A DNA stretch of 64,000 nucleotides from a virus. Shown piece after piece: positions 4,869 to 52,323 of this stretch. Where the stretch lies: positions 271,416 to 335,415 of IMG/VR virus record IMGVR_UViG_3300042558_004148; one strand, 5' to 3'. A program made the translations under genes and the position numbers. The notes below the pieces were generated by a model. That model searched no databases. It was not told the origin of the DNA and saw only the letters and a program-made list of their open reading frames with translations. Each line of letters opens with the position of its first letter. Positions within the stretch are counted from its first letter, which is position 1.

Positions 4869-5441
4869 TTAGAATTTCATTCCGAATTTCTTAATGATGC
4901 TATTAACCTTTGCAAGTTCTTCTTCGTCTAGCTCCTCTTTCAACCAGTAACTAAGAGCTGTTGATTTCATATTTGGATTTTTCTTATAGTAATCCTCTCT
5001 TGCTTTATAATAAGCATTAACGTTCTTATGTTCATTCTTGTCCCAGCTTGAGAATATGTCCTTTATTGTTAGTGGATAAAGTTTCCATTGATTACTAACG
5101 TGTTTAGTGAAAGCATCTGGAGTTCCTATTAGTGCAGGTATCAGTGATCCTATTCCTTGGTATTTATCATATTCCAGTCCAAGTAAATCCCAAATTGAAG
5201 ACAGTTCAATTAGCTCTTCCTTTGTTTTAATCTTGGAAAAAACTGCATATACTGCATCCTCGTCAGTTCCTGTACCTCTCATTGCTTTTAGCAGAGCCTT
5301 ACAATTTCCAGCTGCTTGTTTTGCTTTTGGATTCTTCTTAAAAAAATCAACTATCACTTTAGGATCGGACTCCTTGCTAGCCAGTTCATTAAGTACGCCA
5401 TGCTCGTCGCTAAATGCTTCGAATAATTTAATGTGTTTCAT
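4869..5441 (-). CDS. Tagged protein with annexin-like repeat, 190 aa
   Basis: Starts MKHIKLFEAF, the N-terminal tag shared by many unrelated proteins here; LFE fits a (L/I)xE prohead-protease site. Residues about 49-85 read LLKAMRGTGTDEDAVY and continue as a helical bundle. GxGTDED is the hallmark calcium-loop of annexin repeats. Only one repeat is seen instead of four. I infer a packaged protein; membrane or calcium binding is a guess from the loop. Confidence 0.75.
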   Translation of the reverse strand: MKHIKLFEAFSDEHGVLNELASKESDPKVIVDFFKKNPKAKQAAGNCKALLKAMRGTGTDEDAVYAVFSKIKTKEELIELSSIWDLLGLEYDKYQGIGSLIPALIGTPDAFTKHVSNQWKLYPLTIKDIFSSWDKNEHKNVNAYYKAREDYYKKNPNMKSTALSYWLKEELDEEELAKVNSIIKKFGMKF

Positions 5442-5464
5442 ATTACTTATTGTTTTTTGATACT

Positions 5465-5474
5465 CTATATATTC
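5465..5474 (-). promoter_or_regulatory. Late-type box GAATATATAG
   Basis: Lone box about 23 bases upstream of the annexin-like gene on the minus strand. Confidence 0.5.
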
Positions 5475-5476
5475 TT

Positions 5477-5878
5477 CTATAACGTGGAATCGCCGGCACC
5501 TTTATGAATTAATTCGATTGATGCGGGCGGGATCTTTTCAAATGTGATAACTCTCTTGTCTTCAGGTTCAAAGTTGGGATCAACGTACCACGTGTTACTT
5601 AGACCACCTGTATCTATTCTATAGATGTCATCATCGTATGTGGAATCCCACCAATCCTTCTTATCATCACTGTTAACTGCAAAGATGACTTCACCATCAA
5701 TGTCGGTATCAGATAGCCAGCTTTCACCCTTTCCCTTTGGCACCAGACCCTCTCTTGAGATTGTGTCTCTAAATATGGGATTGGACGTGTGATACAGATA
5801 TTGGTTTGGTGACACCTGTACTAAATGAGTATTAGATGATTCGGATATAAACTTCTCGAATAGTTCAATGTGTTTCAT
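5477..5878 (-). CDS. Tagged ADP-ribosyltransferase-like protein, 133 aa
   Basis: Starts MKHIELFEKF (tag). After about residue 26 it reads QYLYHTSNPIFRDTISREGL, the YHxT...I...GL opening typical of small ADP-ribosyltransferase and RNA 2'-phosphotransferase folds; an SxxxDIDGEVIFAV strand and a FEKIPPASIELI ending follow. No full catalytic triad can be assigned by eye. T4 carries a tagged, injected ADP-ribosyltransferase (Alt), so an analogous role is attractive but inferred. Confidence 0.6.
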   Translation of the reverse strand: MKHIELFEKFISESSNTHLVQVSPNQYLYHTSNPIFRDTISREGLVPKGKGESWLSDTDIDGEVIFAVNSDDKKDWWDSTYDDDIYRIDTGGLSNTWYVDPNFEPEDKRVITFEKIPPASIELIHKGAGDSTL

Positions 5879-5881
5879 GTT

Positions 5882-5891
5882 CTATATATCA
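5882..5891 (-). promoter_or_regulatory. Late-type box abutting the start codon
   Basis: TGATATATAG on the minus strand, three bases (AAC) before ATG. The same box-AAC-ATG arrangement occurs at 6943. A normal start site would give an almost leaderless mRNA. Confidence 0.45.
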
Positions 5892-8313: not shown

Positions 8314-8538
8314 ATGAACTCAGTAGAATCATCAATCAAATCACAGTTAGCAACCCTTAAGTCTAACAAGAGCTATATTGCTCTCTCGCTACACCCACCC
8401 GTGGGATCATCTATTATTATGGCGGAAGGAAATCGTATGTTCATCAATGAAGGCCGTCAAGGTAAGTTTGATAATGTATCCGAATCTTTTTACGATCAAA
8501 TGGTAGATAAATATGATAGCAGAAACAAAAAAAGATAA
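8314..8538 (+). CDS. Small hypothetical protein, 74 aa
   Basis: First gene behind its own promoter and probably co-transcribed with the next gene four bases away. No domain seen; ends in a basic tail. Confidence 0.65.
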   Translation: MNSVESSIKSQLATLKSNKSYIALSLHPPVGSSIIMAEGNRMFINEGRQGKFDNVSESFYDQMVDKYDSRNKKR

Positions 8539-8542
8539 TCCA

Positions 8543-9160
8543 ATGAAAACAATTAAAACATTCGAATCATTCAAACAGGGCATAAGCTTTGAAGACCTAT
8601 CGGATTCGGCCAAGGCTAACGCTATAGATAATGCTCGTAATATCAACGTGGATTATGACAGTTGGGCAGATCCTTATATAGAAGGCTTTGTCGAGGATAT
8701 GGAAAAGGCTGGGGTTAGTGATGTTGAGGTTGAGTATTCAGGATTTTGGAGTCAAGGTGATGGAGCTTCTTTTACCGGGGTGGTTAGAGGAGACGAGGAC
8801 AAATCAATATTGGTTAACAAAGAAATTGGTATGGCAGTTCCTAAAGAGGTCTTGGAGAACATTTATATCTCAATTAAAAAAACCGATAGCAGATACTCAC
8901 ACAGTAATACTATGGTAGCCGAGGTGGAAGTTGATGGAGACGATGAGGTTGAGATTTATATCGGTCCGGATGTTAATGTGACTTTGGATGTTGAACAACA
9001 ATGTGAATTGATACAACCTAAAGTAGAAGAATGGGCTAAAGGAAAAGCTGATGAGTTATACCGCAAATTAGAAAAGGCATACGAGGATCTATCTTCTGAT
9101 GAATCTGTAACAGCAACCTTAATAGATTATGAATTTGATGCGGATGGTAATATCATATAA
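8543..9160 (+). CDS. Possibly tagged protein with LSDxAKxxA motif, 205 aa
   Basis: I chose ATG 8543, giving MKTIKTFESFKQG, which resembles the tag; an upstream start would overlap the previous gene. Then FEDLSDSAKANAIDNAR, a motif also present as FSELSEEAKKRAI in the gene at 10025, and GFWSQGDGASF, a motif I know from other phage proteins of unknown role. Acidic. It sits in an accessory-type unit, so the tag assignment is weaker here. Confidence 0.7.
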   Translation: MKTIKTFESFKQGISFEDLSDSAKANAIDNARNINVDYDSWADPYIEGFVEDMEKAGVSDVEVEYSGFWSQGDGASFTGVVRGDEDKSILVNKEIGMAVPKEVLENIYISIKKTDSRYSHSNTMVAEVEVDGDDEVEIYIGPDVNVTLDVEQQCELIQPKVEEWAKGKADELYRKLEKAYEDLSSDESVTATLIDYEFDADGNII

Positions 9161-9191
9161 CTAATCTCCCAACCCGAACATAATGTATTAA

Positions 9192-9220
9192 GAATCACGT
9201 CTCTCCGGCGTGATTTTTTT
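9192..9220 (+). terminator. Terminator overlapping the next promoter
   Basis: AATCACG/CGTGATT hairpin; its T-run doubles as the T-run of the promoter at 9214. Confidence 0.75.
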
Positions 9221-9245
9221 TATCCGCGGAGTTTGCATACATTTG
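9214..9245 (+). promoter_or_regulatory. T-run/ATC promoter
   Basis: T7-ATCCGCG with -7 box CATACATTTG; shares its T-run with the upstream terminator. Confidence 0.65.
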
Positions 9246-9275
9246 TAGGAAGTTGAATACAAAAATAATTAGACG

Positions 9276-9950
9276 ATGGAAGACGAAGACAGCTTAGACG
9301 GATCAGCATATGCTAACTATCTCAGATATACCGATAAATGGGGACCTTCATTGAGCACAAATAACGATAACCGAGGCAGATCGATGCTGGCTGATATTCG
9401 GCGATATACAGATCCTTATGAAGCTGCTGTAAGAGCTCAAGAAGAAATCGATGAGGTTGCTCGTACAGCACAAAGACCAGATCATTTATATACAGATGGT
9501 AGGGTGTATACCTTGGAAGGATTGGGATATGCTATTCAGGAAATGGAACGAAACAGTACCTCCAAATATTACGAGAAAGAAAAGGAACCCGAGGTGGAAC
9601 CGGATTCTAAATCATTAGAGATCGTTCTCAGAAGAATGAAACTCGGATTAAAGCCGTATGTATATGAGTACGAATTAGTTTCGGCTACTAATGATTTTAT
9701 TTGTTGTGATATCGATGAATTTGATCCAGATAATGGTCGACATAAAATGGCTGAAACTGTACATTGGTTACACCCAAGAATATACGAAAAGATAAAAGCC
9801 AAGTGTAAGGATATTCAGGAAGCAATGGATCTAATGGATAAGACAGAGCAAGAATATGCGGATAAGCGTGATGAAATTAAAACAACAATAGCCTCACTTG
9901 TCGAGTCCACAAAAAATCTAGAAACAAAAGGCCACGACTTTATATTATAA
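9276..9950 (+). CDS. Hypothetical acidic protein, 224 aa
   Basis: Single gene between two promoters. Charged, mostly helical, with a C-terminal coiled-coil-like segment (about 180-215). No signal peptide or family recognised. Confidence 0.7.
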   Translation: MEDEDSLDGSAYANYLRYTDKWGPSLSTNNDNRGRSMLADIRRYTDPYEAAVRAQEEIDEVARTAQRPDHLYTDGRVYTLEGLGYAIQEMERNSTSKYYEKEKEPEVEPDSKSLEIVLRRMKLGLKPYVYEYELVSATNDFICCDIDEFDPDNGRHKMAETVHWLHPRIYEKIKAKCKDIQEAMDLMDKTEQEYADKRDEIKTTIASLVESTKNLETKGHDFIL

Positions 9951-9968
9951 AAATTATTTTCGTTTTTA

Positions 9969-10001
9969 TTTTTTTATCTGAAACTGAATGATTACCTTTA
10001 C
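9969..10001 (+). promoter_or_regulatory. T-run/ATC promoter
   Basis: T7-ATCTGAA and -7 box TTACCTTTAC, 24 bases before ATG 10025. Confidence 0.7.
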
Positions 10002-10024
10002 TTCATAATCAAACAACGGATATT

Positions 10025-10624
10025 ATGAGATCATTAAACCTTTACAATTTTTCAGAGCTATCAGAGGAGGCTAAGAAAAGAGCAATTCTAGATTATAAAG
10101 AGGAGATGGAGGAGAACGAACAACAAGAGGCATTCAGATGGGCTATTGATGATTGTGCCTTATTCGAACCCGAACATAATGAACTTGTTGCTGTGGTTGG
10201 TGACGACTACTACGATAGAAATGGCGGATTCATTATGGAGAATGGAAGAAAGGGTATAGAGATATCGGATTATTCTTGTATCAATATTAAAGATGCACTT
10301 ACCATAACAAACTCCACGATGTTTCTTAAATGGTTAGGCGTACCAGATATGTTCATTAATAAGGTTGAGTATGAAATATCAGATACAACCACAACCACAG
10401 AAATTGAAATGGTTCACAATAGGCTAATGGGTGATCCACTTGCAGATGCTCTAACAGGTATTCTTACTCAAGCCGAATCTAAATTTGCAAATCATATCAA
10501 TGTGATTAAACGCCGAATAGATTCTGGAATAGAGGAATACTTCTCAGATGATAATATCATAGATAGGCTGGCAGAGGATGAAGAGGTAGAATTCACAGAG
10601 GACGGAATTCTTTGGAATAGTTAA
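10025..10624 (+). CDS. Protein with LSEEAKxxA motif, 199 aa
   Basis: Starts MRSLNLYNFSELSEEAKKRA, related in its opening to the gene at 8543. This helical motif occurs in several phage families of unknown function. Acidic; no catalytic residues assignable. Heads a run of small genes to 12292. Confidence 0.7.
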   Translation: MRSLNLYNFSELSEEAKKRAILDYKEEMEENEQQEAFRWAIDDCALFEPEHNELVAVVGDDYYDRNGGFIMENGRKGIEISDYSCINIKDALTITNSTMFLKWLGVPDMFINKVEYEISDTTTTTEIEMVHNRLMGDPLADALTGILTQAESKFANHINVIKRRIDSGIEEYFSDDNIIDRLAEDEEVEFTEDGILWNS

Positions 10625-13226: not shown

Positions 13227-13227
13227 T

Positions 13228-16782: not shown

Positions 16783-16792
16783 CTATATATCA
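16783..16792 (-). promoter_or_regulatory. Late-type box TGATATATAG
   Basis: Lone box 16 bases upstream of the CHAP gene start on the minus strand. Confidence 0.5.
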
Positions 16793-18279: not shown

Positions 18280-18290
18280 GTATATATCCG
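18280..18290 (-). promoter_or_regulatory. Late-type box GGATATATAC
   Basis: Minus strand, about 28 bases before the transglycosylase ATG. Confidence 0.45.
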
Positions 18291-27222: not shown

Positions 27223-27232
27223 GGATATATAG
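27223..27232 (+). promoter_or_regulatory. Late-type box GGATATATAG
   Basis: Lone box 19 bases before the tagged gene at 27252, in a region otherwise full of T-run/ATC promoters. Confidence 0.5.
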
Positions 27233-40659: not shown

Positions 40660-40669
40660 CGATATATAA
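40660..40669 (+). promoter_or_regulatory. Late-type box CGATATATAA
   Basis: 34 bases before the tagged gene at 40704; divergent from the sigma promoter. Confidence 0.45.
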
Positions 40670-41288: not shown

Positions 41289-41566
41289 AATCACCATTTA
41301 TGGAATCAGTGGTTTCCAAGGGATCTATAGAAACCGTTGTTAGAAAATTTGATAGCAATATAGACCCAAATGAACTCAAGTGGCACTGGGATAATGAGGA
41401 TAGAATAGTTTATCCTATCGGTGAAAGTGATTGGATGTTTCAGTTCGATAATGAATTACCGATTAATATTAGAGCTAAAATAAAAATACCAAAAGGTACT
41501 TGGCATAGAATAATAAAAGGAACCAGTGATCTTCAGATAATAGTTGAGAAGATTAAGGATATATAA
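41282..41566 (+). CDS. Small cupin-like protein, 94 aa
   Basis: KWHWDNEDRIVYPIGESDWM ... IPKGTWHRIIKGTSDLQI has the two strand motifs and His residues of a single-domain cupin. Start overlaps the previous stop. Ligand unknown. Confidence 0.65.
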   Translation: MVKSPFMESVVSKGSIETVVRKFDSNIDPNELKWHWDNEDRIVYPIGESDWMFQFDNELPINIRAKIKIPKGTWHRIIKGTSDLQIIVEKIKDI

Positions 41567-41582
41567 TAAAAAAATAATAGAT

Positions 41583-41879: not shown

Positions 41880-41910
41880 TTTAATCATATAACATAAATA
41901 ACAAATAACA

Positions 41911-42114: not shown

Positions 42115-42117
42115 AAT

Positions 42118-42699: not shown

Positions 42700-42711
42700 T
42701 TAAAATTAAAT

Positions 42712-42951: not shown

Positions 42952-43109
42952 AAAAAATATCTATTGATAGTCTAAGAAAAATTAATCTGGATCATCTCAT
43001 ATTTTTAGCATTTGCTGGGCCAGAAGCTTTGGATGGCTATATACACATTAGAAACATAGCTAAAGAAAAAGCTAAAAAAATAATACTAACAAAAAAGCCG
43101 ATTAAATAA
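42948..43109 (+). CDS. Small basic protein, 53 aa
   Basis: Start inside the previous stop codon region. Lys-rich C-terminus (IAKEKAKKIILTKKPIK), whose last codons form part of the terminator. Confidence 0.6.
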   Translation: MKKISIDSLRKINLDHLIFLAFAGPEALDGYIHIRNIAKEKAKKIILTKKPIK

Positions 43110-43127
43110 TTTAATCGGCTTTTTCTT
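43091..43127 (+). terminator. Bidirectional terminator
   Basis: AAAGCCGATTAAAT/ATTTAATCGGCTTT hairpin with A-run and T-run, between convergent genes. Confidence 0.85.
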
Positions 43128-43143
43128 TTATGTGAAATTTAAT

Positions 43144-44538
43144 TTATGCTAATTCGATGTCCCATACAAGATCTTCAAATATAAAATGTGAATCCTCGAA
43201 TGAATTACATGTTGATTCCCAAACTGCTTTACCTGTATTGTACATCTGAGTAAAGAAATCTGTAGTTGCTTTAGCAGCTTCGTCATATGCGCTACTAAGT
43301 GCTTTACCTGCATCTGATAGCATTTTCTTACCTCCATTGTAAGCATTGGTAGTAAATTTAACTGATGCATCCCAACCAGCTTTAATAGTTTTGGCGAAAT
43401 CTGCTGCTCCGTCCTTAACATTCTTACCAATCCAAGCCATTCCTCCAGCAATCACTGCTGCTCCGTCCTTAGCTCCCTGAACTATTGTTTTTAATGCTGG
43501 TGACAAGAAAGTAGCTACTGATTTAAAAGCACTAACTGCTAGACCAGTAAGAACATATCCCAATGTTTTAGCTCCTGCTTTAATACCATCGAAAAAGGCT
43601 GTTGCCCCTTGTACTGTTGATTTAAGTGCCTTAGCTGAATCCTGAGCAAATTTGGTGAAGAATGCATTAGCTTTATCTGAAACCTTTTTATAGATGGCTG
43701 CACCTTTTATAGAAGCCCAATTCGCGATAGAAGCTAATCCTTGAATAGCTGCACCTGCCGTGTACATAACACCATCTGCAAGGAATTTAGAAGCAGATGC
43801 TACAGCAGATAAAATAGCCATTGCACCATCCAAAGCCATAACAACAGCTCCAGTTACAGTATAAACTATAGCCTTACCAACTGCAGTTGCTGCATTTTTA
43901 ATAAATGCTAAGTTAGCATCCAATAGTGTTGTACCCTCTAGTGCTTTTACTTGTGTGGCTGCATCTTTTTTAGGTATACATATAACTAATGTTTTGCTAC
44001 CGTATTTAACAACCGTTATAGATTGATAGATTTTAAGAAGAATTGGGTTAATCCCAGCTTTTTTAGCATCTTCAGCAGTTTTTACATTGTATCTTTTCAC
44101 TATATCAGCATCTTGCTTAGCAGTATCCTTTATTGATTTAGATAATTCTAATAATTTTCTAAGCGTTTGAACTCCAACAATACCATCAACGGTAAGTTTG
44201 TTAGTTTTCTGGAATTCCTTAACCTTAGCTTCAGTAGCTGAACCGAATGCTCCATCAGCCTCTTTAGCGCTCATTCCTAGGTCCTTTTGTAATTCAGTAA
44301 CCCTCTTACTCTTCTCGCCTTTTTTTAGAGGTTTGAATTCACTTGGTGTTGGTCCAGCCTCATCAACAGGCTTTTCTTCGGTTGGTGCTAATAGGTCTGC
44401 AATTTTTTCCGCATCAGCAGCGGGAGCAAATGGATCGAATAATAAAGGATCCTCTGCTTTTACTTCTGATTCGTTAATAAATCCATATGATTCATATAGG
44501 TGCTCGAAATCAGAAAATGATAATAATTTGTTTTCCAT
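43144..44538 (-). CDS. Tagged peptidoglycan-binding and tape-like protein, 464 aa
   Basis: MENKLLSFSDFEHLYESYGF: tag ending in LYE. Residues about 68-132 form a PG_binding_1 domain (LKKGEKSKRVTELQKDLGMS, then DGAFGSATEAKVKEFQK and DGIVGVQTLRKLL). From about 200 on, long Ala/Gly-rich helices with hydrophobic stretches (GKAIVYTVTGAVVMALDGAM) look like a membrane-inserting or tape-measure-like segment. I infer an injected protein that spans the envelope. Confidence 0.75.
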   Translation of the reverse strand: MENKLLSFSDFEHLYESYGFINESEVKAEDPLLFDPFAPAADAEKIADLLAPTEEKPVDEAGPTPSEFKPLKKGEKSKRVTELQKDLGMSAKEADGAFGSATEAKVKEFQKTNKLTVDGIVGVQTLRKLLELSKSIKDTAKQDADIVKRYNVKTAEDAKKAGINPILLKIYQSITVVKYGSKTLVICIPKKDAATQVKALEGTTLLDANLAFIKNAATAVGKAIVYTVTGAVVMALDGAMAILSAVASASKFLADGVMYTAGAAIQGLASIANWASIKGAAIYKKVSDKANAFFTKFAQDSAKALKSTVQGATAFFDGIKAGAKTLGYVLTGLAVSAFKSVATFLSPALKTIVQGAKDGAAVIAGGMAWIGKNVKDGAADFAKTIKAGWDASVKFTTNAYNGGKKMLSDAGKALSSAYDEAAKATTDFFTQMYNTGKAVWESTCNSFEDSHFIFEDLVWDIELA

Positions 44539-44563
44539 GTCTAAATTTATTTTTTACTATAAA

Positions 44564-44573
44564 CTATATATCA
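44564..44573 (-). promoter_or_regulatory. Late-type box TGATATATAG
   Basis: Minus strand, 25 bases before the PG-binding gene; divergent from the T-run promoter at 44592. Confidence 0.5.
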
Positions 44574-44591
44574 AAAATAAATTACAAATAT

Positions 44592-44624
44592 TTTTTTTAT
44601 ACCGGGAAGGTTTAATATATTTGC
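44592..44624 (+). promoter_or_regulatory. T-run promoter abutting a start codon
   Basis: T8-ATACCGG with -7 box ATATATTTG, then four bases and ATG 44628: leaderless arrangement. Confidence 0.65.
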
Positions 44625-44627
44625 AAT

Positions 44628-45302
44628 ATGAAAAAACAAATATTATTACTTGTCGTGTTTTTATCTTGTACATTATTATATGCACAGAATAGAACTTTCA
44701 GCTCCTCTGATGTTGATATAGCTACAATAGGATTTTCAAATGATCTGTCCGTGTATACTTCATATGGATCTAATGAAATTCATCGCGAACATTTTTTAGA
44801 TAGTGTTGCTAAGGTTAGGGTTAATTATTTTTCCAGTGTCCTTATAGAAACTGGCAGAAGATTTTCATTATGTAGTTTAGTTGAAAATATACCGGCAAAT
44901 AATTATGGGCATTCTAGATATTTCGGAAACGATAAACTATTTAAAGAACCAGCTGGTTGCAGATATCCTAATCCTTTACCTTTAATAGAAAACGCGAATA
45001 CAAAGGTAACCGCAGAAATTATGCAGCAAACATCATGGACAAAATCAAGCGAATATAAATATACAGATGCGCAACTTATAAAGATGTCGTTGCTTGCTAT
45101 CGGTAATAAATTCGGTAAAGATTTTATTTTGGATGGTTATAAGGAATCATCTTCCCATAGGAATGCAATAAAGAAATATGCAAAAGGTGCATATGGTTCT
45201 TATACGAAAGCTATAATCTCAAGAAAAAGAAATGAATTAGAAAATGTTTGGATTTATGAGGTAGTTATCTATAATCTAACTGTTTTTTCCAAACCCGCTT
45301 AA
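44628..45302 (+). CDS. Secreted CAP-like protein, 224 aa
   Basis: Signal peptide (residues 1-21, LLYAQ cut site). The region ESSSHRNAIKKYAKGAYGSY with a later EVVIYNLTVF is a diverged CAP/SCP-like pattern; a paralogue with a clearer CAP domain lies at 49986 with the same promoter spacing. CAP proteins are secreted, functions diverse; a phage role outside the cell or on the host surface is a guess. Confidence 0.55.
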   Translation: MKKQILLLVVFLSCTLLYAQNRTFSSSDVDIATIGFSNDLSVYTSYGSNEIHREHFLDSVAKVRVNYFSSVLIETGRRFSLCSLVENIPANNYGHSRYFGNDKLFKEPAGCRYPNPLPLIENANTKVTAEIMQQTSWTKSSEYKYTDAQLIKMSLLAIGNKFGKDFILDGYKESSSHRNAIKKYAKGAYGSYTKAIISRKRNELENVWIYEVVIYNLTVFSKPA

Positions 45303-45800
45303 TTATCTTAGCGTAAGTAGATATCTAGTTTGATCAACCAATGCTACAATTTCATCTAATATATTAAATATTTCGCTATCTGAATTCTCGTCTAATAATG
45401 CTCTACAATCAATAGCATAGCATTTATGCATAACATCCATAAATTTTTTAAGATCACATTTTTCAGGATCATTAAAATTCATTATTTTAATGCTAAGATT
45501 ATCGTCAGATAAAACTGGCTTACCATACTTACCCATTATAACTTCAGCAAGACTGTCGCTGAGATCAAGGAATTTTCCAAATAACTTATCTAATGCCTTG
45601 TGCTGTCCGTAAGTATATGCTTGCCAATGTAGCAATTTTATCTGGGCAGTATTTTGCATTATCATCTTAAATATATGGCCATATTTATTTGCTTCCTCAG
45701 ATGAAACGTTATCTTCTGGCTTCTTATTAGCAACCATATCCATATTTGCTGGATTCTTAATCACGTCTCCAAATGCGCTAAGGTTTAAAATTCCGTCCAT
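45303..45800 (-). CDS. DUF5856-like ferritin-fold protein, 165 aa
   Basis: KMIMQNTAQIKLLHWQAYTY then GQHKALDKLFGKFLDLSDSL is the helix pair of a family often found in myoviruses, similar in shape to Dps/ferritin helices (HW...H). Not tagged, but preceded by a late-type box. Role unknown; nucleic-acid or oxidative-stress link only by analogy. Confidence 0.7.
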   Translation of the reverse strand: MDGILNLSAFGDVIKNPANMDMVANKKPEDNVSSEEANKYGHIFKMIMQNTAQIKLLHWQAYTYGQHKALDKLFGKFLDLSDSLAEVIMGKYGKPVLSDDNLSIKIMNFNDPEKCDLKKFMDVMHKCYAIDCRALLDENSDSEIFNILDEIVALVDQTRYLLTLR

Positions 45801-45819
45801 TATTTAATGTATATTTTAA

Positions 45820-45829
45820 CTATATATCA
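45820..45829 (-). promoter_or_regulatory. Late-type box TGATATATAG
   Basis: Minus strand, 19 bases before the DUF5856-like gene; it overlaps the last codons of the upstream gene. Confidence 0.5.
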
Positions 45830-46233
45830 CCAATTGGATTTATTTTATTTACTATTGATGTTGTTGATAAATTGGGGATTTTGGTAAAAAATTCAACATT
45901 GCATAAATTTGATCCGGTTATCTTTCTCCCAATATATTCATCGCCTATTATTATCAGATCCACATTTTTTTCGACCAGCTTATCGCACATTTCAATTTCA
46001 CTAGAAAAAACGACGACCTCATCAACATATCGTATCGATTCAAGTATAATCTTTCTGTTATTTTGGTTGTTTATAGGTCTATCCTTACCCTTCAGAATTG
46101 ATACTCTTTCATCGGAATCTATACCAACAATAAGTAGATCCCCCCTGGATCTTGCATATTTTAGAATCTCTATATGCCCGGGATGTATTATATCGAAGCA
46201 TCCGTTGACCCATATTATTTTCTTTTTCTCCAT
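45820..46233 (-). CDS. Cytidylyltransferase-like nucleotidyltransferase, 137 aa
   Basis: WVNGCFDIIHPGHIEILKYA holds the HxGH signature of the glycerol-phosphate/RfaE cytidylyltransferase family; later VGIDSDERVSILKGKDRPIN and FFTKIPNLSTTSIVNKI fit the second nucleotide-binding motif. Such enzymes activate a phosphorylated sugar or alcohol with CTP or ATP. Phage substrate unknown; perhaps sugar or NAD chemistry. Confidence 0.85.
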   Translation of the reverse strand: MEKKKIIWVNGCFDIIHPGHIEILKYARSRGDLLIVGIDSDERVSILKGKDRPINNQNNRKIILESIRYVDEVVVFSSEIEMCDKLVEKNVDLIIIGDEYIGRKITGSNLCNVEFFTKIPNLSTTSIVNKINPIGDI

Positions 46234-46283
46234 GCAGGAAACTTTTTATTGTTATAGATCTTATATAGATATATTATTTCACT

Positions 46284-46736
46284 ATGGGATGGCGTAATTT
46301 TTCAACGCATAAAGAGATTGAGCTAAAAGAATATTTAGAGGAGTGGTTATTCGAAAATCCGGATCATCTAATTTACATTGGCTGTGATTCTCATAATGAT
46401 ATGGCTAATACAAATTTTGCAACTGTCATAGTACTTCATCATTATTCCAAAGGCGGACACGTTTTATATAATAAGGAGATAATACCAAGGGTCACTTCAG
46501 CACACGAAAGACTATGGAAAGAGGTTGAGTATAGTGTAAATGCTGCTAAAAAATTAATAGAGTGGGGAATACAATCTCCTGAATACATAGACATTGATAT
46601 GAATCCAGACCCTAAATATCAGTCAAATCAAATGCTTAGAGCTGCGGTTGGATTGGTTGAATCTGAGGGAATGAAAGCAAGATATAAAACACTTTCCCCA
46701 TGGTCAATATCAATAGCTGATGTTATCTGTAGATAA
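46284..46736 (+). CDS. RNase H-like protein (DUF458/YkuK type), 150 aa
   Basis: LIYIGCDSHNDMANTNFATV then IVLHHYSKGGHVLYNK and IDIDMNPDPKY match the RNaseH_like (YkuK) family; Asp in GCDSH and the IDIDMN Asp could be catalytic. Nuclease activity is unproven in this family. Confidence 0.75.
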   Translation: MGWRNFSTHKEIELKEYLEEWLFENPDHLIYIGCDSHNDMANTNFATVIVLHHYSKGGHVLYNKEIIPRVTSAHERLWKEVEYSVNAAKKLIEWGIQSPEYIDIDMNPDPKYQSNQMLRAAVGLVESEGMKARYKTLSPWSISIADVICR

Positions 46737-46744
46737 ATACCATT

Positions 46745-47212
46745 ATGGAGGTAGAAAAGGGCATAGTAACATTTAGTTCACAAATAGATAGCGAATATAC
46801 GGTTTTCATAGTATATGAGGAAAGCGAAAAATATCCAGCATTCAGAGAAATTTTCGAGCTACTTGATGATAGTGTTGGATTCCTAGATTTCAAGGGTAAG
46901 CTTATTTTCATAGATGGCGAGTGTAAAGATCTAACATTGGACCATATCATAGCAGTACAAGCACATGAGATATGTCATTTTATACTCCAGCATAATAATG
47001 GTGATTATAGTGAGGATAGAATGGAAATAGAAGCTGATATGGCATCAATAGAAATGCTTAATTGTATGGAAATGTATATTCCGGCAGATCTTATAAAGGA
47101 GAGGCTGCTTGAGAGGTATGGAATATTATACTCAACTGATAGCTTAGATTTTATATTATCTCCAGATAAAAGACTCATATTCAATGAATATCTAAAAAAA
47201 ATTAAAAAATAG
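46745..47212 (+). CDS. Zincin-type metalloprotease-like protein, 155 aa
   Basis: VQAHEICHFILQHN has the HExxH motif (about residue 78) and MEIEADMASIEML supplies the downstream Glu/Asp as third ligand, as in IrrE/ImmA-like and small zincin families. ImmA-type proteases cleave repressors; target here unknown. Confidence 0.7.
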   Translation: MEVEKGIVTFSSQIDSEYTVFIVYEESEKYPAFREIFELLDDSVGFLDFKGKLIFIDGECKDLTLDHIIAVQAHEICHFILQHNNGDYSEDRMEIEADMASIEMLNCMEMYIPADLIKERLLERYGILYSTDSLDFILSPDKRLIFNEYLKKIKK

Positions 47213-47221
47213 GATAAATAA

Positions 47222-47254
47222 TTTTTTTATATCGTGAAATATTATTATCTTTAC
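47222..47254 (+). promoter_or_regulatory. T-run promoter of a tRNA cluster
   Basis: T7-ATATCGT with -7 box TTATCTTTAC, 31 bases before tRNA-Arg. Confidence 0.65.
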
Positions 47255-47285
47255 GTCATACAAATAAGACACAATGAAAACTAAA

Positions 47286-47359
47286 GGCCCCGTAGCTCAG
47301 CTGGATAGAGCAATTCACTTCTAATGAATAGGTCACACGTTCGAATCGTGTCGGGGTCA
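47286..47359 (+). tRNA. tRNA-Arg (TCT)
   Basis: Acceptor GGCCCCG/CGGGGTC, anticodon stem ATTCA/TGAAT with loop CTTCTAA. No encoded CCA. Confidence 0.95.
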
Positions 47360-47367
47360 CAAAAAAT

Positions 47368-47449
47368 GCTCCTTTGGTGGAATTGGTAGACACGCTAGAC
47401 TTAGGATCTAGTGCCGAGAGGTGTGAGAGTTCGAGTCTCTCAGGGAGTA
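47368..47449 (+). tRNA. tRNA-Leu (TAG)
   Basis: Type II with variable arm; anticodon stem CTAGA/TCTAG, loop CTTAGGA. A second Leu-TAG lies at 61566. Confidence 0.95.
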
Positions 47450-47455
47450 CAACGG

Positions 47456-47501
47456 CTTTGATGGAGAGCCAAAAGTAGGTGATGAACCTACGTCCATCAA
47501 A
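47456..47501 (+). ncRNA. Structured spacer between tRNAs
   Basis: TTTGATGGA pairs with TCCATCAAA and encloses a second hairpin GTAGGT/ACCTAC. Not a tRNA and has no T-run. Confidence 0.5.
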
Positions 47502-47503
47502 AA

Positions 47504-47577
47504 GGTCTTGTAGCTCAGTTGGTTAGAGCACCGCACTCATAATGCGTAGGTCCCTGGTTCGAGTCCAGGCTGGACCA
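47504..47577 (+). tRNA. tRNA with CAT anticodon (Met or Ile)
   Basis: Acceptor GGTCTTG/CTGGACC with G1-C72, so elongator-type; loop CTCATAA. A lysidine-modified Ile tRNA is also possible since no other Ile tRNA is seen. Confidence 0.9.
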
Positions 47578-47580
47578 CTA

Positions 47581-47610
47581 AATCCCGCCCAATAAGGGTG
47601 GGATTTTTTA
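47581..47610 (+). terminator. Terminator of the tRNA cluster
   Basis: AATCCCGCCC/GGGTGGGATT hairpin with six T. Confidence 0.85.
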
Positions 47611-47627
47611 TTAAAAATAATTTTAAT

Positions 47628-48053
47628 ATGATATCAATTTATTTAGACGATTTTAGAACGCCCACCGAACATCCTAATAACGGGGAATGGATTATAGTAA
47701 GAAATTATGAGGAGTTCGTTAATAAGATATTAGAGGTTGGACTAGATAACATAGATATTCTCTCGCTGGACCATGACTTGGATCATTCAGCAACATCCCA
47801 CTATTTTGAATATGTTAAAAAAAATTACTCAATAGACTATTCACAAATACTAGAACCCACAGGAATGGACGTAGCTAAATGGCTTATCTTGCATTCTAGA
47901 GCAACTGGTCACAAAATACCCAAATGTTATATACACTCTCATAATCCAATAGGATCCGGAAATATGTTGGGTCAAATAAATCTATATTTAAAGGAAAAGA
48001 AATTACCGGAAAGCTGCGAGATTAAAAGATGGAAGTATATAAATAAGGAATAG
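47628..48053 (+). CDS. cREC-type receiver-like protein, 141 aa
   Basis: I chose ATG 47628 (MISIYLDDFRTP). The chain has IYLDDFRTP, ILSLDHDLDHS, PTGMDVAKWL and YIHSHNPIGSGNM, the pattern of the cyclic-phosphate processing receiver domain family (cREC). That family is linked by others to RNA end repair and is not a phospho-relay; the Asp/His residues would bind metal. Its place beside tRNAs is suggestive of tRNA repair; inferred. Confidence 0.75.
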   Translation: MISIYLDDFRTPTEHPNNGEWIIVRNYEEFVNKILEVGLDNIDILSLDHDLDHSATSHYFEYVKKNYSIDYSQILEPTGMDVAKWLILHSRATGHKIPKCYIHSHNPIGSGNMLGQINLYLKEKKLPESCEIKRWKYINKE

Positions 48054-48074
48054 CAAAACCCGATTCCTTGATTT

Positions 48075-48085
48075 GAATATATATA
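48075..48085 (+). promoter_or_regulatory. Late-type box GAATATATAT
   Basis: 13 bases before the fibre gene ATG 48099; last base differs from consensus. Confidence 0.4.
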
Positions 48086-48098
48086 AAAAAAGGAATCC

Positions 48099-49931
48099 AT
48101 GTCAAATCCAGTAAAATATTCAATAACACCACTACCATATACTATAGGGAGAAATAACATGAACCTAGGGGTTGGCGTAACGGGATATGGATCAACACCG
48201 GAAACTAATTTTTGGCAAGGCTATGACGTTACACCATCGGGATATGTCATCTATATAAATAAGGCAGAACAAGGACCTTCGATATATTCACCAGAATCTG
48301 ATTTGGATCTCGTTGGATTAATCTCAATTAATGCATTTGGTGGATCATCGATAACAACAGTATCTGATGCATTATTATGGTTATATGATCAGGACGATAC
48401 AATATGTATCAATATGGAATACCCCTCGATACCAACTGAAGGCCTTAATATGCTTCTGGATGCAGGATTTACTGCATCATATCCAAGAACAGGTAATGAG
48501 TGGTATGACCTCTCCAGAAATGGTAATTCAGGAAATCTAATGGGATCGACATTCAGTAATTTACAAAAAGGTAATATTGTATTTAATGGGGCAAGTGATT
48601 ATGTAGATATAAACAATGGTTCACCCGTATTATCAAATAACGAATACACCAAGATAATCTGGTTTTATGTTAATAGCTTTTCTAATGCAAATAATCTAAT
48701 AAGTGGAGGATCTGGATCTGGTCAGGGACAGCATGCTTTTTGGCTGGGCGCAACAAATAAATTACAATCTGGACATAATGGTTCCTGGAATATAGTTGAA
48801 TCATCAACCACTCTTAACCTTAATACTTGGTATTGTGGTGCAGTAACCTTTAGTTCGGCAGCAGGATGGAAACTATATCTGAATGGTGTATTGGAAGATA
48901 GTTCAGCTGATAATATTACATTTTCTGGTGACGGTAACGTTTTTATAGGTTCATATGATACAGGTTCAAATTTATTTAATGGATCCATATCCAATGCTAT
49001 TATATACGACAGAACATTAAGTGATTCCGAAATAACATCAATATATAATTCATTCTTGCCGAGATTCATAATACCGACGACTAGCACGACTACGACTAGC
49101 ACCACAAGCACCACAACTACGACGACTATAGCTCCTACGACTACGACTACGACTACAACTAGCACCACGACTACGACGACTATAGCCTCAACAACGACAA
49201 CAACGACAACTATAGCTCCAACAACGACAACAACGACAACTATAGCTCCCGGTATAATTACCAGTAGTTTATTCATGAAGCTTGATGCTAGTAATTATAC
49301 ATCAGGTACATGGACGGATGAGACTGGTAACGGAAATAATGCGACTATTAATGGGGCGACTTGGTCGTCAACGGACGGTGGTATTTTTGATTTAAATGGT
49401 ACTAGTAACACAATTAGTATTCCACACACTTCAAATCTTAGTTTAAATACCACGACACAAAGAACGATTCAGGTTTGGGTTAAATTCGATGTGTTACCTG
49501 CACTGAATACACAGATACCGGTCTTTGGTAAATTATCGGGATCGTTTGGGTTTGATGGATACTGGGGGGGTTTATTTTCTAATGGTGGTAAAGTTAGGTC
49601 AGTAACAAATGGAACAGGTGTTCAAAGAATTGTTGATTCTACTTTAACCGTCACAACAAATACTTGGTACTTATTTACTTTTATATCACAAATTACAGCA
49701 ACAGCAAATACAACTAAAGTTTATATTAATACTACGGAATATATTACAACGGCACACGGGACAGATGGGTATTCGGAATCGAATCCTCTATACCTAGGAT
49801 ATATTGGGGCGGGTATTGGATCAACATATCTAAATGGTAAAATCGGTGCATCATATTTCTATACTAGAGGGTTGAGCGCTTCGGAAATTTCAACTAATTA
49901 TAATTCAACAAAATCAAAATATGGTTTATAA
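48099..49931 (+). CDS. Lectin-domain tail fibre or surface protein, 610 aa
   Basis: N-terminal 120 residues unknown. Two concanavalin A/LamG-like domains (about 130-325 and 390-605), each with a NGSISNAIIYDRTLSDSEIT-like or YTRGLSASEI end. Between them is a Thr-rich linker (about 327-385) built of TTTTTTIAP-type repeats. Such modules bind glycans; adhesin or fibre decorating the virion is the best guess. ATG 48099 is 13 bases behind a late-type box. Confidence 0.8.
   Translation: MSNPVKYSITPLPYTIGRNNMNLGVGVTGYGSTPETNFWQGYDVTPSGYVIYINKAEQGPSIYSPESDLDLVGLISINAFGGSSITTVSDALLWLYDQDDTICINMEYPSIPTEGLNMLLDAGFTASYPRTGNEWYDLSRNGNSGNLMGSTFSNLQKGNIVFNGASDYVDINNGSPVLSNNEYTKIIWFYVNSFSNANNLISGGSGSGQGQHAFWLGATNKLQSGHNGSWNIVESSTTLNLNTWYCGAVTFSSAAGWKLYLNGVLEDSSADNITFSGDGNVFIGSYDTGSNLFNGSISNAIIYDRTLSDSEITSIYNSFLPRFIIPTTSTTTTSTTSTTTTTTIAPTTTTTTTTSTTTTTTIASTTTTTTTIAPTTTTTTTIAPGIITSSLFMKLDASNYTSGTWTDETGNGNNATINGATWSSTDGGIFDLNGTSNTISIPHTSNLSLNTTTQRTIQVWVKFDVLPALNTQIPVFGKLSGSFGFDGYWGGLFSNGGKVRSVTNGTGVQRIVDSTLTVTTNTWYLFTFISQITATANTTKVYINTTEYITTAHGTDGYSESNPLYLGYIGAGIGSTYLNGKIGASYFYTRGLSASEISTNYNSTKSKYGL
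49078..49250 (+). repeat. ACN/ACG repeat coding for Thr-rich linker
   Basis: Repeats of ACGACTACG, ACAACGACA and ACTATAGCTCC; repeat number may vary between isolates and change linker length. Confidence 0.8.
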
Positions 49932-49950
49932 TAAATAATACGTAAATTAT

Positions 49951-49982
49951 TTTTTTTATCCGATTACATATATTACATTTGA
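49951..49982 (+). promoter_or_regulatory. T-run/ATC promoter abutting a start codon
   Basis: T8-ATCCGAT with -7 box TTACATTTG, four bases, ATG 49986. Confidence 0.65.
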
Positions 49983-49985
49983 TAT

Positions 49986-50582
49986 ATGAAAAAAATGATT
50001 CTATTCCTATTATTAACTCTAGTTCAAAATGTTCTATATGCTCAGACCAATTTAGAAGGATTGGTCTTAAAAGAACTTAATGCTTATAGAAAATTAAATA
50101 AGCTAAAACCGGTAAAATATTCAGATACCATAAATAAAGCTGCTTATCACCACACCCAATGGATGTCCAGAGTTAGCTTTAATAAAATGAAGCAAATAAT
50201 GGAGGTTGATGATGGATCAGAGCAAATGGATGCACACACTGAAACAATCGACGTCCCGAACTTTAAGGAATTAAAAACCCCCGAGGATAGAGGAAAGGAA
50301 TTCGGTATAATTAAGGAAAGTACCAATTATACTTTAGGTGAGATCTGTAATATGGCAAATGCAAACGGCGGAAACTATTTCACTGCTTCTCAAAAATCCG
50401 ATGATATGCTCGCTAAGGATATAATAACAAAATTTTCAAAATCACCAGGCCACGATGCGGTAATGAGATTGGACCTTGATAATTGTTATGTCGGTATTTG
50501 TGTAATTGTTAAGAGTGTTATTATCGGTGGACAGGAGAATAAAATTGCATATACCACAATATATTTTATTGAAAAATACTAA
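49986..50582 (+). CDS. Secreted CAP/SCP-domain protein, 198 aa
   Basis: Signal peptide (about 1-19, LYAQ). LNAYRKLNKLKPVKYSDTIN, KAAYHHTQWM, DAHTET and KFSKSPGHDAVMRLDLDNCY then VGICVIV match the CAP (CRISP/PR-1) fold with its His and Glu pocket residues. Secreted outside the inner membrane. Function in a phage is unknown; related leaderless gene at 44628. Confidence 0.75.
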   Translation: MKKMILFLLLTLVQNVLYAQTNLEGLVLKELNAYRKLNKLKPVKYSDTINKAAYHHTQWMSRVSFNKMKQIMEVDDGSEQMDAHTETIDVPNFKELKTPEDRGKEFGIIKESTNYTLGEICNMANANGGNYFTASQKSDDMLAKDIITKFSKSPGHDAVMRLDLDNCYVGICVIVKSVIIGGQENKIAYTTIYFIEKY

Positions 50583-50592
50583 TATTGCTATT

Positions 50593-50602
50593 GGATATAT
50601 AG
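50593..50602 (+). promoter_or_regulatory. Late-type box GGATATATAG
   Basis: 21 bases before ATG 50624, ahead of two tagged genes. Confidence 0.5.
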
Positions 50603-50623
50603 TTAAAATAAATCCAAATAAGA

Positions 50624-51928
50624 ATGTCTAAGAAATTTGTTTTCGAATCATTAAGTGATTTCATAAATTATAAGCTTTTAACAGAGACTCCAAACGGAAC
50701 TCTAAATGAGGCTGACTCTAAATCCTCCCCTTGGGATTTTAAATTTGATAGCGGTGAATTTAAAAAAGATGACGTAAGTCCAGATCAGATAAAAAAATTA
50801 GAGGTAGATTTTAAAAATAGGATAATTCCAGTTTTAAATAATCAGAACTACATCGGTCAGAAACTTAATGTAACAATATCTTCAGCATCAAGTAAGGTTC
50901 CTGTCAATCCATCAGGATCTGTTGCAAAAGCATTAAAGGCTGCAGGTTATTCAACAGATAATGACGGCCTATGTAAAGCTAGAGGTAATACTGTTGTTGA
51001 GTTGATAAAAGACCTAATGTACAATACATTCGGTGAAGGTATGGACAGGAAGGAATTTCTTAAGTCCGCCGAAAAGAAAATGGAATTCATAAATAAGCCA
51101 ATGCCTAATATTGGACCAGATTATGATAAATCTAAAGGTGATAATCCGGATGATCAGAAATTTAAGGACAATCAATTTATTTCTGCGACACTCGTAGCAA
51201 GTGGTGAACCAATTGGTGATGATATAAAGATATCATGTAAAATGGATAAAAGTTTCTCTGGTAGAAAGGCTGATGCTAGCAACGGATATGCAGGTTATGA
51301 TAAAACAGTTTACCTTACAGCTAAGGCTGGCCAGAAAATGGAGATATTCTTTGATCCATTAGTTATACCAGATGCTATATTATTTTCATACTCAGGAAAG
51401 GAGATTAAACTTTCACCATTTATGGGTGCATTCGGTGCTAAATATATTAGAGGTGAATATAGCAAGGAAAAAGAGGATGCGTTAAATGCAGATGCTAAAG
51501 CGGGTAAAAATGCTCCTGGTAAAAGAGAGAACATTGGAGGAAAAAATTATTTAGTTATTGATTATAAGGATTACCTTAATAATGTTATCAATAAAGGTGG
51601 TTCATTGGTTAAAGCAATAGAGACTAAACTATCTTCGCTTGGTCTAAAACCTATCAAAGAACTTTGTCCGGAATTTTTTGATTCAGCAGGAAAAATAGAG
51701 GTCTATAGAAATAAGGATCTTAGTGAAATTAAAATAGATGACACCAATAAAGTTTGGGAATGGACATACGATCTGCTTAAATCTGGTGCATTAAAAGAAT
51801 CTCCAAAGGCTGACATAAAGAGTTTAAGTATAGAGGTTACTAAAAATGCAGTAAGAGACGCAGTTAAATTAGTTGCTTTCTCACCGGTAGCTGGAACCCA
51901 ATTTAAAATAAGAACAGTTTGTAAATAA
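50624..51928 (+). CDS. Tagged protein, 434 aa
   Basis: MSKKFVFESLSDFINYKLLT: extended tag; GTLNEADSK offers a LNE site near residue 28. The body is beta-rich with Lys and Asp, including a KISCKMDKSFSG stretch. No family recognised. Longest tagged protein apart from the PG-binding one; stop overlaps the next start. Confidence 0.7.
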   Translation: MSKKFVFESLSDFINYKLLTETPNGTLNEADSKSSPWDFKFDSGEFKKDDVSPDQIKKLEVDFKNRIIPVLNNQNYIGQKLNVTISSASSKVPVNPSGSVAKALKAAGYSTDNDGLCKARGNTVVELIKDLMYNTFGEGMDRKEFLKSAEKKMEFINKPMPNIGPDYDKSKGDNPDDQKFKDNQFISATLVASGEPIGDDIKISCKMDKSFSGRKADASNGYAGYDKTVYLTAKAGQKMEIFFDPLVIPDAILFSYSGKEIKLSPFMGAFGAKYIRGEYSKEKEDALNADAKAGKNAPGKRENIGGKNYLVIDYKDYLNNVINKGGSLVKAIETKLSSLGLKPIKELCPEFFDSAGKIEVYRNKDLSEIKIDDTNKVWEWTYDLLKSGALKESPKADIKSLSIEVTKNAVRDAVKLVAFSPVAGTQFKIRTVCK

Positions 51929-52323
51929 TGAGCAATAATATAAAAACTTTCGAAAGTTTCTCGTATCCAATTAACGAGGAGGCAGCTTTACCAAAGATGC
52001 CGGATTTTCTTAAAAAAGCTGGAGCTAAAGAAGACCACTTCCATGGAGGAGGACCTGTTAGGATGAACCCACCAAATAATTCTTGGATAATCGAGGTAAA
52101 ATCGCCCAAAGGTATATTTAAGAAAGAGCATACATGGGGATTAGTATTTTTTCCTAACGGTACATTCACAACCGGAATAACCCCAGAGGATTCAAACGGT
52201 CCATTCAATAGCGGTGGTAAATGGAAGGCTAGTCCTTCGGATTCATTTACTATGCTGAATAAAAAAATACAGGGAGTATCTATGACATTCAATAGCTTAT
52301 TTTCTCCTACCACATATATGTAA
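51928..52323 (+). CDS. Tagged protein, 131 aa
   Basis: MSNNIKTFESFSYPINEEAA: tag with INE as possible second site. The rest is beta-rich (SWIIEVKSPKGIFKKEHTWG). Partner of the preceding gene by overlap. Confidence 0.7.
   Translation: MSNNIKTFESFSYPINEEAALPKMPDFLKKAGAKEDHFHGGGPVRMNPPNNSWIIEVKSPKGIFKKEHTWGLVFFPNGTFTTGITPEDSNGPFNSGGKWKASPSDSFTMLNKKIQGVSMTFNSLFSPTTYM

Follow-up and report, generated by a model that had tools for sequence, protein, structure and literature searches.

The window analysed here, a 64,000-nucleotide (nt) stretch covering bases 271416-335415 of the 373,485-base virus record IMGVR_UViG_3300042558_004148, encodes 19 proteins with a common short N-terminus, first described as variants of MKHIKLFExF and here given the consensus MKxIKx[FY]xx[FY]. 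This shared N-terminus, which we call the tag, is very probably a capsid-targeting sequence (CTS) that works like the CTS of the T4 internal proteins. From the sequence we infer that the tagged proteins of this phage are packaged and their tags cleaved off; delivery into the next host is plausible by analogy with T4. Nearly the whole record was examined, and its 432 genes were called with our own codon-usage caller, so gene counts are approximate; gene 30377 (window genes are named by their left coordinate), absent from the caller output, was added from the open reading frame (ORF) list of an earlier sequence-only reading, giving 433 scored proteins. The capsid protein is a relative of T4 gp23 (PF07068, E 2e-40). 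Among the nearest named relatives in the phage collection are LR756500, an uncultured 462-kb phage (46% identity), Prevotella Lak megaphages (38-46% among the matches listed), and further huge phages, together with cultured ones that infect Flavobacterium, Tenacibaculum, Chryseobacterium, and 'Sphingomonas' (PAU). To judge from these relatives, the host of this phage is likely a member of the Bacteroidota. Megablast of window positions 36000-52400 against the phage collection returned only matches of less than 70 bases, the annotated ones mostly to tRNA.

All 19 N-termini listed in the sequence-only reading begin at ATG codons at the places given, with the qualification that its five minus-strand values denote the left (stop) end of the gene and the true N-termini lie at 5441, 5878, 16766, 18252, and 44538. 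In a leave-one-out profile of the 19 tags, scored against 1457 25-mers starting at internal Met residues, 17/19 stood out: 14 were above every control, and 37024, 42118, and 43144 were exceeded by 3, 1, and 2 of the 1457. The other two, 36770 (41/1457 controls higher) and 50624 (277/1457 higher), fail on the tag alone; candidate cut sites are nevertheless present in both (LDE/S in 36770; LTE and LNE/A in 50624, a slash marking the presumed cut). The whole-proteome profile scan that had been proposed recovered the tag on unseen genes outside the window. With the profile trained on the 19, 23 of the 350 called genes not wholly within the window scored at 6 bits, compared with 3/1267 internal-Met and 17/6220 random fragments, and 12/350 did so at 12 bits (controls 0/1267 and 1/6220). 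The same profile also picks up the tag in a related huge phage. The tag had been placed between 4869 and 52323; it does occur there, yet it extends genome-wide beyond that interval, to 42/433 proteins at 6 bits with the 19 training ones included. The 6-bit hits 29168, 148426, and 135377 are likely due to chance, and several sub-threshold starts look real. The bodies behind the tag are unrelated, as had been claimed: the 42 tagged proteins form 41 blastp clusters, which rules out paralogy.

The tag also occurs in other viral sequences. A DNA pattern for MKHIKLFExF, with x limited to NAN codons, matches at least 120 IMG/VR stretches and only two places in 84,980 cellular genomes. One of the cellular matches is on contig 291 of its assembly, with gp23 on the same contig; the other is on a 3.9-kb contig of an assembly in which no gp23 match was found. 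Among the matches listed, to which all IMG/VR tag counts here refer, we collected 143 starts, which give 125 distinct proteins; 134 of the starts have a body, and these bodies fall into 74 families. The tags are written in 49 distinct 24-mers among the 143, with His encoded by CAC in 74 and CAT in 69; synonymous sites vary freely, and the constraint therefore acts on the peptide. [LIVMF]xE stands precisely at residues 11-13 in 76/118 distinct IMG/VR proteins, compared with 0-9 for other start positions.

Judged by their sequences, the tags come in lineage versions: MKHIKLFEQFINE here, MKYIKEYEEFLLE in LR756500, LYEAKLNE in PAU, and LYESIMKSVSK..KKLNE in Lak. The LR756500 version is found on 34/621 genes at 10 bits (controls 4/1587 and 16/10260), and [LIVMF]xE immediately follows the second-aromatic place in 21/34 of these proteins. 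Lak-B5 (MK250024) has its own tag, approximately KKxLYESIMKSVSKxVKKKLNE, with 10/546 proteins matching the pattern and eight doing so clearly (controls 9/2370 internal-Met and 41/9640 random; examples are 40558, 95230, 134369, 193461, 197032, 227676, 231476, and 525775). The profile of our phage hits 16/546 Lak-B5 proteins at 6 bits, vs 15/2370 internal-Met controls, and three of the 16 carry Lak's own tag. The Lak tag ends in the same [LI]NE as the Lak capsid propeptide (KLNE/DAF). Chryseobacterium phage MA9V-1 (OR050627) has T4-like starts, MKxFxxF[IV]NE[AS], at 122538, 126193, and 176213, two of them near the protease gene. LYE prevails in the tags of PAU and Lak, and a cut at LYE/[ASG] would be in keeping with the motif there.

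A second motif behind the tag provides a candidate cut site. [LIV]NE occurs in residues 10-40 of 17/42 tagged proteins, compared with 21/391 untagged proteins and 1/184 internal windows of tagged proteins; followed by Ala or Ser, the counts are 9/42, 6/391, and 0/184. Asn at P2, the second residue before the cut, carries the cut-site signal in this phage. [LIV]xE of any kind follows the tag in 28/42, and with a middle residue other than Asn it occurs in 15/42 tagged vs 159/391 untagged proteins, no enrichment, so the earlier suggestion that tags end in a generic (L/I)xE does not hold. In seven of the 19, [LI]xE (LFE, LYE, IFE) falls inside the tag, and a cut there had also been proposed; this is unlikely in this phage, where the residue concerned varies (L, T, S, I, P, G, E, V) and 7/19 conform. 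A tag-independent test of the middle residue of [LI]xE in residues 8-45, with expected counts taken from internal positions, likewise ranked Asn first by p-value (36 vs 12.1 expected), as it did in Lak-B5 (57 vs 26.4) and LR756500 (56 vs 33.4, p 1e-3). Asn was first without being significant in MA9V-1 (16 vs 10.8) and lay outside the four residues listed in T4, PTm1, and MaF61. No cut site was found behind the tag of the 6956 protein.

Orthologues have retained this site. The first gene after the gp23 gene is tagged (14.0 bits), and its orthologues have E42 in 50/50 aligned rows (one of which probably duplicates this phage's own sequence), V, I, or L at P3 in 50/50, and Asn at P2 in 40/50. The second gene after gp23 starts MTLKFKEW..LNE, which we take for a diverged tag; it scores -2.4 and was counted as untagged in the statistics. 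Its orthologues have E13 in 49/49, Asn at P2 in 40/49, and F5 and W8 in 48/49 each. The residues separating tag and site are mostly variable in these orthologues, and in both genes selection appears to maintain the presumed cut-site Glu. Similarly, the adenylate kinase has a tag-like start and an NE site in 24/24 loci, the tag with small indels, although several of these loci are identical or almost so and the tag was itself the target of one of the six patterns searched. The CHAP protein has the tag and [LIV]xE/A in 11/16 loci, with a variable P2; four distant CHAP homologues have the domain without a preceding tag, their starts being unsettled and one match partial.

A gp21-type prohead protease, which the sequence-only reading had suggested looking for elsewhere in the genome, is present. 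A 656-residue gene at record positions 50884-52854 (L009:12884-14854) encodes a domain of the prohead serine protease type (PF03420, E 1.1e-7; phrog_207, 4.6e-37). Its His79, Ser134, and Asp156 are shared by all six aligned sequences (this phage, T4 gp21, and four relatives). The protease (gp21-type, S77) is fused to a scaffold-like part in one gene, directly followed by the gp23 gene. By comparison with T4, the capsid protein has SLNE/SAGAY where the T4 propeptide ends; SLNE/SA is found in all 80 IMG/VR capsid loci kept (the best 80 of 172), and the capsid protein is presumably cut at LNE/SA.

The scaffold half holds 13 of the 43 copies of [FYH]xx[FYH][LIVM]xE (e.g., YSEYLAE) found across all called proteins, and all 62 orthologues found of the protease-scaffold hold 8-17 copies. 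The LR756500 scaffold has four, and no protein of T4, PTm1, MA9V-1, or Lak-B5 has more than two. Nearly all of the roughly 13 Tyr-rich repeats contain [LVI]AE, a possible target of the protease. These repeats, which can also be written [YF]xx[YH][LVI]AE, resemble the tag, which thus looks like one detached scaffold repeat. The likeness may be due in part to the common cut motif alone. A tag of this form might dock in the scaffold coiled coil. We suggest tentatively, with somewhat more doubt than belief, that a scaffold repeat, copied and detached, serves as a portable tag and as the phage counterpart of a secretion signal, allowing huge Bacteroidota-type phages to bring nearly any protein into their heads.

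Tagged genes and virion genes share an upstream box. We ranked 7-mers by their enrichment before 90 structural-block genes (genes 14-107 by position, tagged ones excluded) vs 301 others, and the top 7-mer, GATATAT, precedes 19/90 structural, 23/301 other, and 24/41 tagged genes. Where at least 20 nt of intergenic space is available, it precedes 15/45, 20/183, and 22/29, respectively. Its distance is 24-43 nt in the 17 tagged cases with a box 16-82 nt upstream, and 12 nt in two window genes, 6956 and 5477 (from the called ATG of the latter). GATATAT is also found upstream of the terminase, portal, and protease genes, and on inspection by eye five of the 23 'other' genes preceded by it seem to carry sub-threshold tags (136526, 180155, 213008, 245519, and 248796). 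We regard the GATATATA box common to tagged and virion genes as a putative late promoter. GATATAT is again the top 7-mer before IMG/VR tags (30/140 vs 73/906); it fits this phage and the IMG/VR tag loci, not LR756500, and a single promoter box for all relatives was thus rejected. The T4-like TATAAATA was rejected as a mark of tagged genes, since it precedes 6/90 structural, 1/41 tagged, and 6/301 other genes.

PAU provides evidence from outside. A tag of the form MK[TSGH][IL]xx[LM][YF]E, often LYEAKLNE/A, is found on 19/294 PAU proteins vs 0/1153 internal-Met controls. Five PAU genes (gp70, 142, 154, 199, and 270) were deposited as 'internal capsid protein', and the tag in its LYE form is on 4/5 of these vs 11/289 others (p 2e-5); with the 'internal capsid vertex proteins' gp1 and gp10 added, the counts are 4/7 vs 11/287 (p 1e-4). 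The PAU capsid protein has 585 residues, and 520 after processing, as determined by N-terminal sequencing (PMC5646251 Table 1), and the mature length is within one residue of a cut after Leu-Met-Glu64. The same source (PMC5646251, 2017) defers the inner structures to a future manuscript.

The cargo is diverse. In this phage, 7/30 searched tagged or tag-like proteins pass the Pfam cut-off, and these are a CHAP protein, two with SLT transglycosylase domains, a peptidoglycan-binding protein, a DUF5661 protein, an adenylate kinase, and a RimK-like ATP-grasp protein; two more tagged proteins searched in Pfam were below the cut-off. In IMG/VR, representatives of 30/74 families were searched and eight pass: 2'-5' RNA ligase (2H), GNAT, zeta-like kinase, NMNAT-like, ATP-grasp, DUF5661, DUF5824, and DUF551. 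The 32/34 tagged LR756500 proteins searched include six with leucine-rich repeats and single matches to DUF5661, PNK3P, RecA, ATP-grasp, DUF2201, and others. An ADP-ribosyltransferase assignment for the 5477 protein was rejected: the match to phrog_5470 is weak (E 1.9e-4), no PDB relative is below E 0.09, and the structural model, with a predicted local distance difference test score (pLDDT) of 35.6, is uninformative.

The 2H protein has both HxT motifs in 5/5 members, and its model has an overall pLDDT of 82.6, with residues 1-6 and 8-18 below 50 and the body at about 90. Its best PDB match by E-value is Acb1, a nuclease that counters cyclic oligonucleotide-based antiphage signaling systems (CBASS) (2.7e-5; template-modeling (TM) scores 0.45/0.57, modest), with other 2H enzymes near. 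Among viral models, the fit is closer (TM about 0.7) to proteins annotated as cyclic phosphodiesterase or 2'-5' RNA ligase than to those annotated as Acb1, and Acb1 activity of this cargo is therefore only a guess. Homologues in other phages align with the adenylate kinase from residue 23 or 25 (15 listed of 16) and with the NMNAT protein from residue 24 or 26 (15 listed of 17). Among the 2H homologues (15 listed of 16), two huge phages match from residue 4 and therefore share the tag; the other 13 start at 10-40. Because adenylate kinase homologues align only behind the tag and the tag residues of the 2H model have low pLDDT, the tag would be an add-on, although a local match may begin late through sequence divergence alone.

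Several lines thus support the earlier proposal of capsid targeting and removal by a gp21-type protease, its generic (L/I)xE part excepted: the protease and gp23 genes, the shared cut motif, the upstream box, the orthologue site, and the PAU labels. Late in infection, tagged and head genes would be co-expressed from GATATATA promoters. The tag MKxIKx[FY]xx[FY] would then attach to the core of the prohead, where its partner is probably the coiled-coil scaffold to which the gp21-type protease is fused. In the prohead, as motif and conservation suggest, the protease would cut the capsid protein at LNE/SA, degrade its own scaffold, and remove those tags that are followed by [LIV]NE/[ASG], so that its action destroys the scaffold and frees the cargo together. 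The freed cargo would stay in the head and enter the next host with the DNA, the least certain step, for which T4 is the analogy. Injection, which is argued from T4, is in keeping with the diversity of the cargo and with the presence in it of cell-wall enzymes and a 2H phosphoesterase. Part of the cargo may instead have a structural role in the inner head.

An unlikely alternative is that the tag holds its proteins at the prohead core or inner shell, where they would serve in structure or assembly (core, size control, DNA condensation) without being injected. T4 IPIII (internal protein III), which has a CTS, does act in head morphogenesis (PMC9026906), tagged PAU gp152 is labelled 'scaffolding', and both post-capsid genes, one with a tag and one with a diverged tag, look coiled-coil-like by eye. 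The cargo, however, is very diverse, with its 74 families in 134 IMG/VR bodies, some of it is patchy (the 5477 protein has matches only in three 100% identical copies), and it includes enzymes without an evident structural role. Short N-termini can also bind membranes, and a tag might send proteins elsewhere in the infected cell (membrane, replication compartment, or tail), with head-protease cutting incidental. T4 heads begin on the inner membrane (PMC5694885), which would suit this idea, yet the cut motif is that of the capsid protein, the box is shared with head genes, tagged genes lie beside the capsid gene, and PAU labels point to the capsid; we consider such a destination quite improbable.

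That the common start is a nucleic-acid feature, a translation-initiation or mRNA element with the peptide as a by-product, could draw on the sequence upstream of IMG/VR tag starts, which is A-rich throughout. The free synonymous variation led us to reject a DNA-level or translational explanation, and a second peptide motif follows at variable distance, so we give it hardly any weight. Chance or paralogy could account for a few 6-bit hits, as noted above, and is scarcely credible for the whole given the held-out and internal-Met controls, the 41 clusters, and the near absence from cellular genomes.

Other observations weigh against capsid targeting by the tag. No [LIV]NE is found in residues 10-40 of 25/42 tagged proteins and no [LIV]xE in 14/42, and in PAU [LIV]NE comes soon after the tag in just 7/19. 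PAU gp1, gp10, and gp70 have no tag; the PAU pattern was framed after viewing gp152-154, and gp154 is among the four labelled proteins with a tag (3/4 on excluding it). The label evidence would be circular if the labels had been drawn from the shared N-terminus itself. RecA, a cytosolic function, is matched by 1/32 LR756500 tagged proteins, and GATATAT is not enriched before the tags of that phage (3/34 vs 34/587). At 10 bits, the profile of our phage finds 0/234 proteins in T4, 0/285 in PTm1, 1/227 in MA9V-1, 0/148 in MaF61, and 1/546 in Lak-B5, a near absence from which we conclude that tags are lineage-specific. A generic pattern with the T4 spacing is not significant in T4 itself (3/234 genes, p 0.05), where two of the three start MKTYQEFIAE and starts such as MMELITELFDE are missed; it matches 23/621 genes in LR756500 (p 5e-12), 4/227 in MA9V-1, 4/285 in PTm1, 0/148 in MaF61, and 1/546 in Lak-B5.

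Table 1. Tagged genes and upstream boxes in the window. Numbers in brackets give the residue of the candidate site; aa, amino acids.
Feature	Position	Strand	Start or candidate cut site	Remarks
Tagged protein, 190 aa	4869..5441	-	MKHIKLFEAF..VLNE(19)/L	leave-one-out 26.3 bits
Tagged protein, 133 aa	5477..5878	-	MKHIELFEKFISE(13)/S	weak RNA 2'-phosphotransferase match (phrog_5470, E 1.9e-4)
Tagged DUF5661 protein, 259 aa	6956..7735	+		GATATAT 12 nt before ATG
Tagged protein, 205 aa	8543..9160	+		further in-frame ATG at 8513; from residue 12, phrog_5162 body
Tagged CHAP-domain protein, 273 aa	15945..16766	-	MEKLKSFSEFLAE(13)/A	near orthologues retain tag and site
GATATATA box	16784..16791	-		25 nt upstream of 15945 ATG
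Tagged SLT transglycosylase-domain protein, 275 aa	17425..18252	-	FNEYINE(13)/N	
GATATATA box	18281..18288	-		36 nt upstream of 17425 ATG
GATATATA box	27224..27231	+		28 nt upstream of 27252
Tagged protein, 105 aa	27252..27569	+		leave-one-out profile
Tagged protein, 103 aa	30377..30688	+		leave-one-out profile
Weakly tagged protein, 80 aa	36770..37012	+	RLDE(19)/S	tag alone not significant
Tagged protein, 199 aa	37024..37623	+		leave-one-out profile
Tagged protein, 215 aa	37623..38270	+	ELNE(16)/A	
Tagged protein, 286 aa	38302..39162	+	VSE(15), IINE(22)/A	
GATATATA box	40661..40668	+		43 nt upstream of 40704
Tagged protein, 194 aa	40704..41288	+	SISE(21)/G	
GATATATA box	41558..41565	+		25 nt upstream of 41583
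Tagged protein, 98 aa	41583..41879	+	DINE(19)/S	
Tagged protein, 67 aa	41911..42114	+		leave-one-out profile
Tagged protein, 193 aa	42118..42699	+		by eye resembles IMG/VR tagged proteins L155, L160
Tagged peptidoglycan-binding-domain protein, 464 aa	43144..44538	-	FINE(23)/S	
GATATATA box	44565..44572	-		34 nt upstream of 43144 ATG
GATATATA box	50594..50601	+		30 nt upstream of 50624
Candidate tagged protein, 434 aa	50624..51928	+	LTE(21), LNE(29)/A	tag alone not significant
Tagged protein, 131 aa	51928..52323	+	PINE(17)/E	

Further observations concern the surroundings of these genes. Within window positions 8513-10624, tagged 8543 and untagged 10025 look related by eye (ISFEDLSDSAKANAI and YNFSELSEEAKKRAI, respectively) and form a natural pair with and without the tag. 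The minus-strand gene at 45303-45800 is untagged by score, yet it has a GATATAT box and the N-terminus MDGILNLSAFGDVI, which may be a diverged tag. ARAGORN places 33 tRNA genes at window positions 32062-63490, most of them at 47-63.5 kb. A series of small ORFs of about 80 codons at window positions 1088-2262, two with the start MEQSAVEWL, are probably tandem paralogues. On the minus strand at record positions 1364-4042, two called genes (98 and 662 residues) have starts that consist of PDVPLVPE-type repeats.

The non-DNA payload of huge phages is largely unknown. If the tag marks packaged proteins, the packaged set could be read from sequence alone, in the way that signal peptides reveal secreted proteins, and each member could be put to the test. 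For many uncultured phages, a list of the proteins injected could then be drawn up, including anti-CBASS-like phosphoesterases that would act before the first phage gene is expressed, and this would open a route to counter-defence proteins active at time zero. The T4 principle of capsid targeting would prove to be a general means of delivery, enlarged to dozens of cargoes, and phages whose hosts are not E. coli would gain a loading tag. Our searches of the open-access PMC literature turned up no account of the tag, of so large a set, or of the likeness to scaffold repeats, and the strings MKHIKLFE, MKTYQEFIAE, and MKTYQEF were not found in the texts searched; the available portions of PMC12363816 (Jug phages) and PMC10537231 (MA9V-1) contain nothing on tags.

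Among known systems, PAU shares gp23 and gp21 relatives and a tag common to many of its proteins; it differs in having LYEAKLNE in place of the LFEQFINE found here, and its protease and scaffold are annotated as separate genes. In phiKZ and SPN3US (gp175 and gp245 proteases), several head proteins likewise have N-terminal propeptides that a diverged gp21 relative cuts, and cargo is ejected. SPN3US has nine substrates, most with propeptides of more than 100 residues and two of 20 and 24, and the motif AXE (PMC10052503). Here, a tag of about 13-40 residues is common to many proteins, and neither the mostly long propeptides nor AxE are seen: candidate sites, with the motif [LIV]NE, lie mostly by residue 13-42 and have L, I, or V at P3. 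The N-terminal capsid signal of P1 DarB, a 250-kDa protein, is similar in that 30 N-terminal residues are enough to bring a reporter into the head; it was shown for one protein, in a phage where no separate scaffold was seen (PMC9024508).

The closest parallel in kind is the CTS of T4 IPI, IPII, IPIII, and Alt with gp21. Ten N-terminal residues of IPIII are enough for loading; in the CTS, residues 4 and 7 are important for targeting and residues 8 and 10 for processing, and gp21 cuts after [LI]xE (PMC9026906). Both systems put a short N-terminal peptide with an MK start on unrelated proteins, with aromatics three apart, followed here in part of the proteins by a candidate [IL]xE site, and both have a gp21-family protease and a capsid protein with an [LI]xE boundary. 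Tyr4, Phe7, Ile8, and Glu10 of T4 MKTYQEFIAE are spaced as Phe7, Phe10, Ile11, and Glu13 of MKHIKLFEQFINE, a match too short to prove common descent. In contrast to T4, three extra residues precede the first aromatic here, P2 is mostly Asn, the site is sometimes 5-30 residues further on or not found, the protease is fused to the scaffold, and tags differ by lineage. The T4 idea is already known, and what is new is its scale, from about four tagged proteins in T4 to about forty here.

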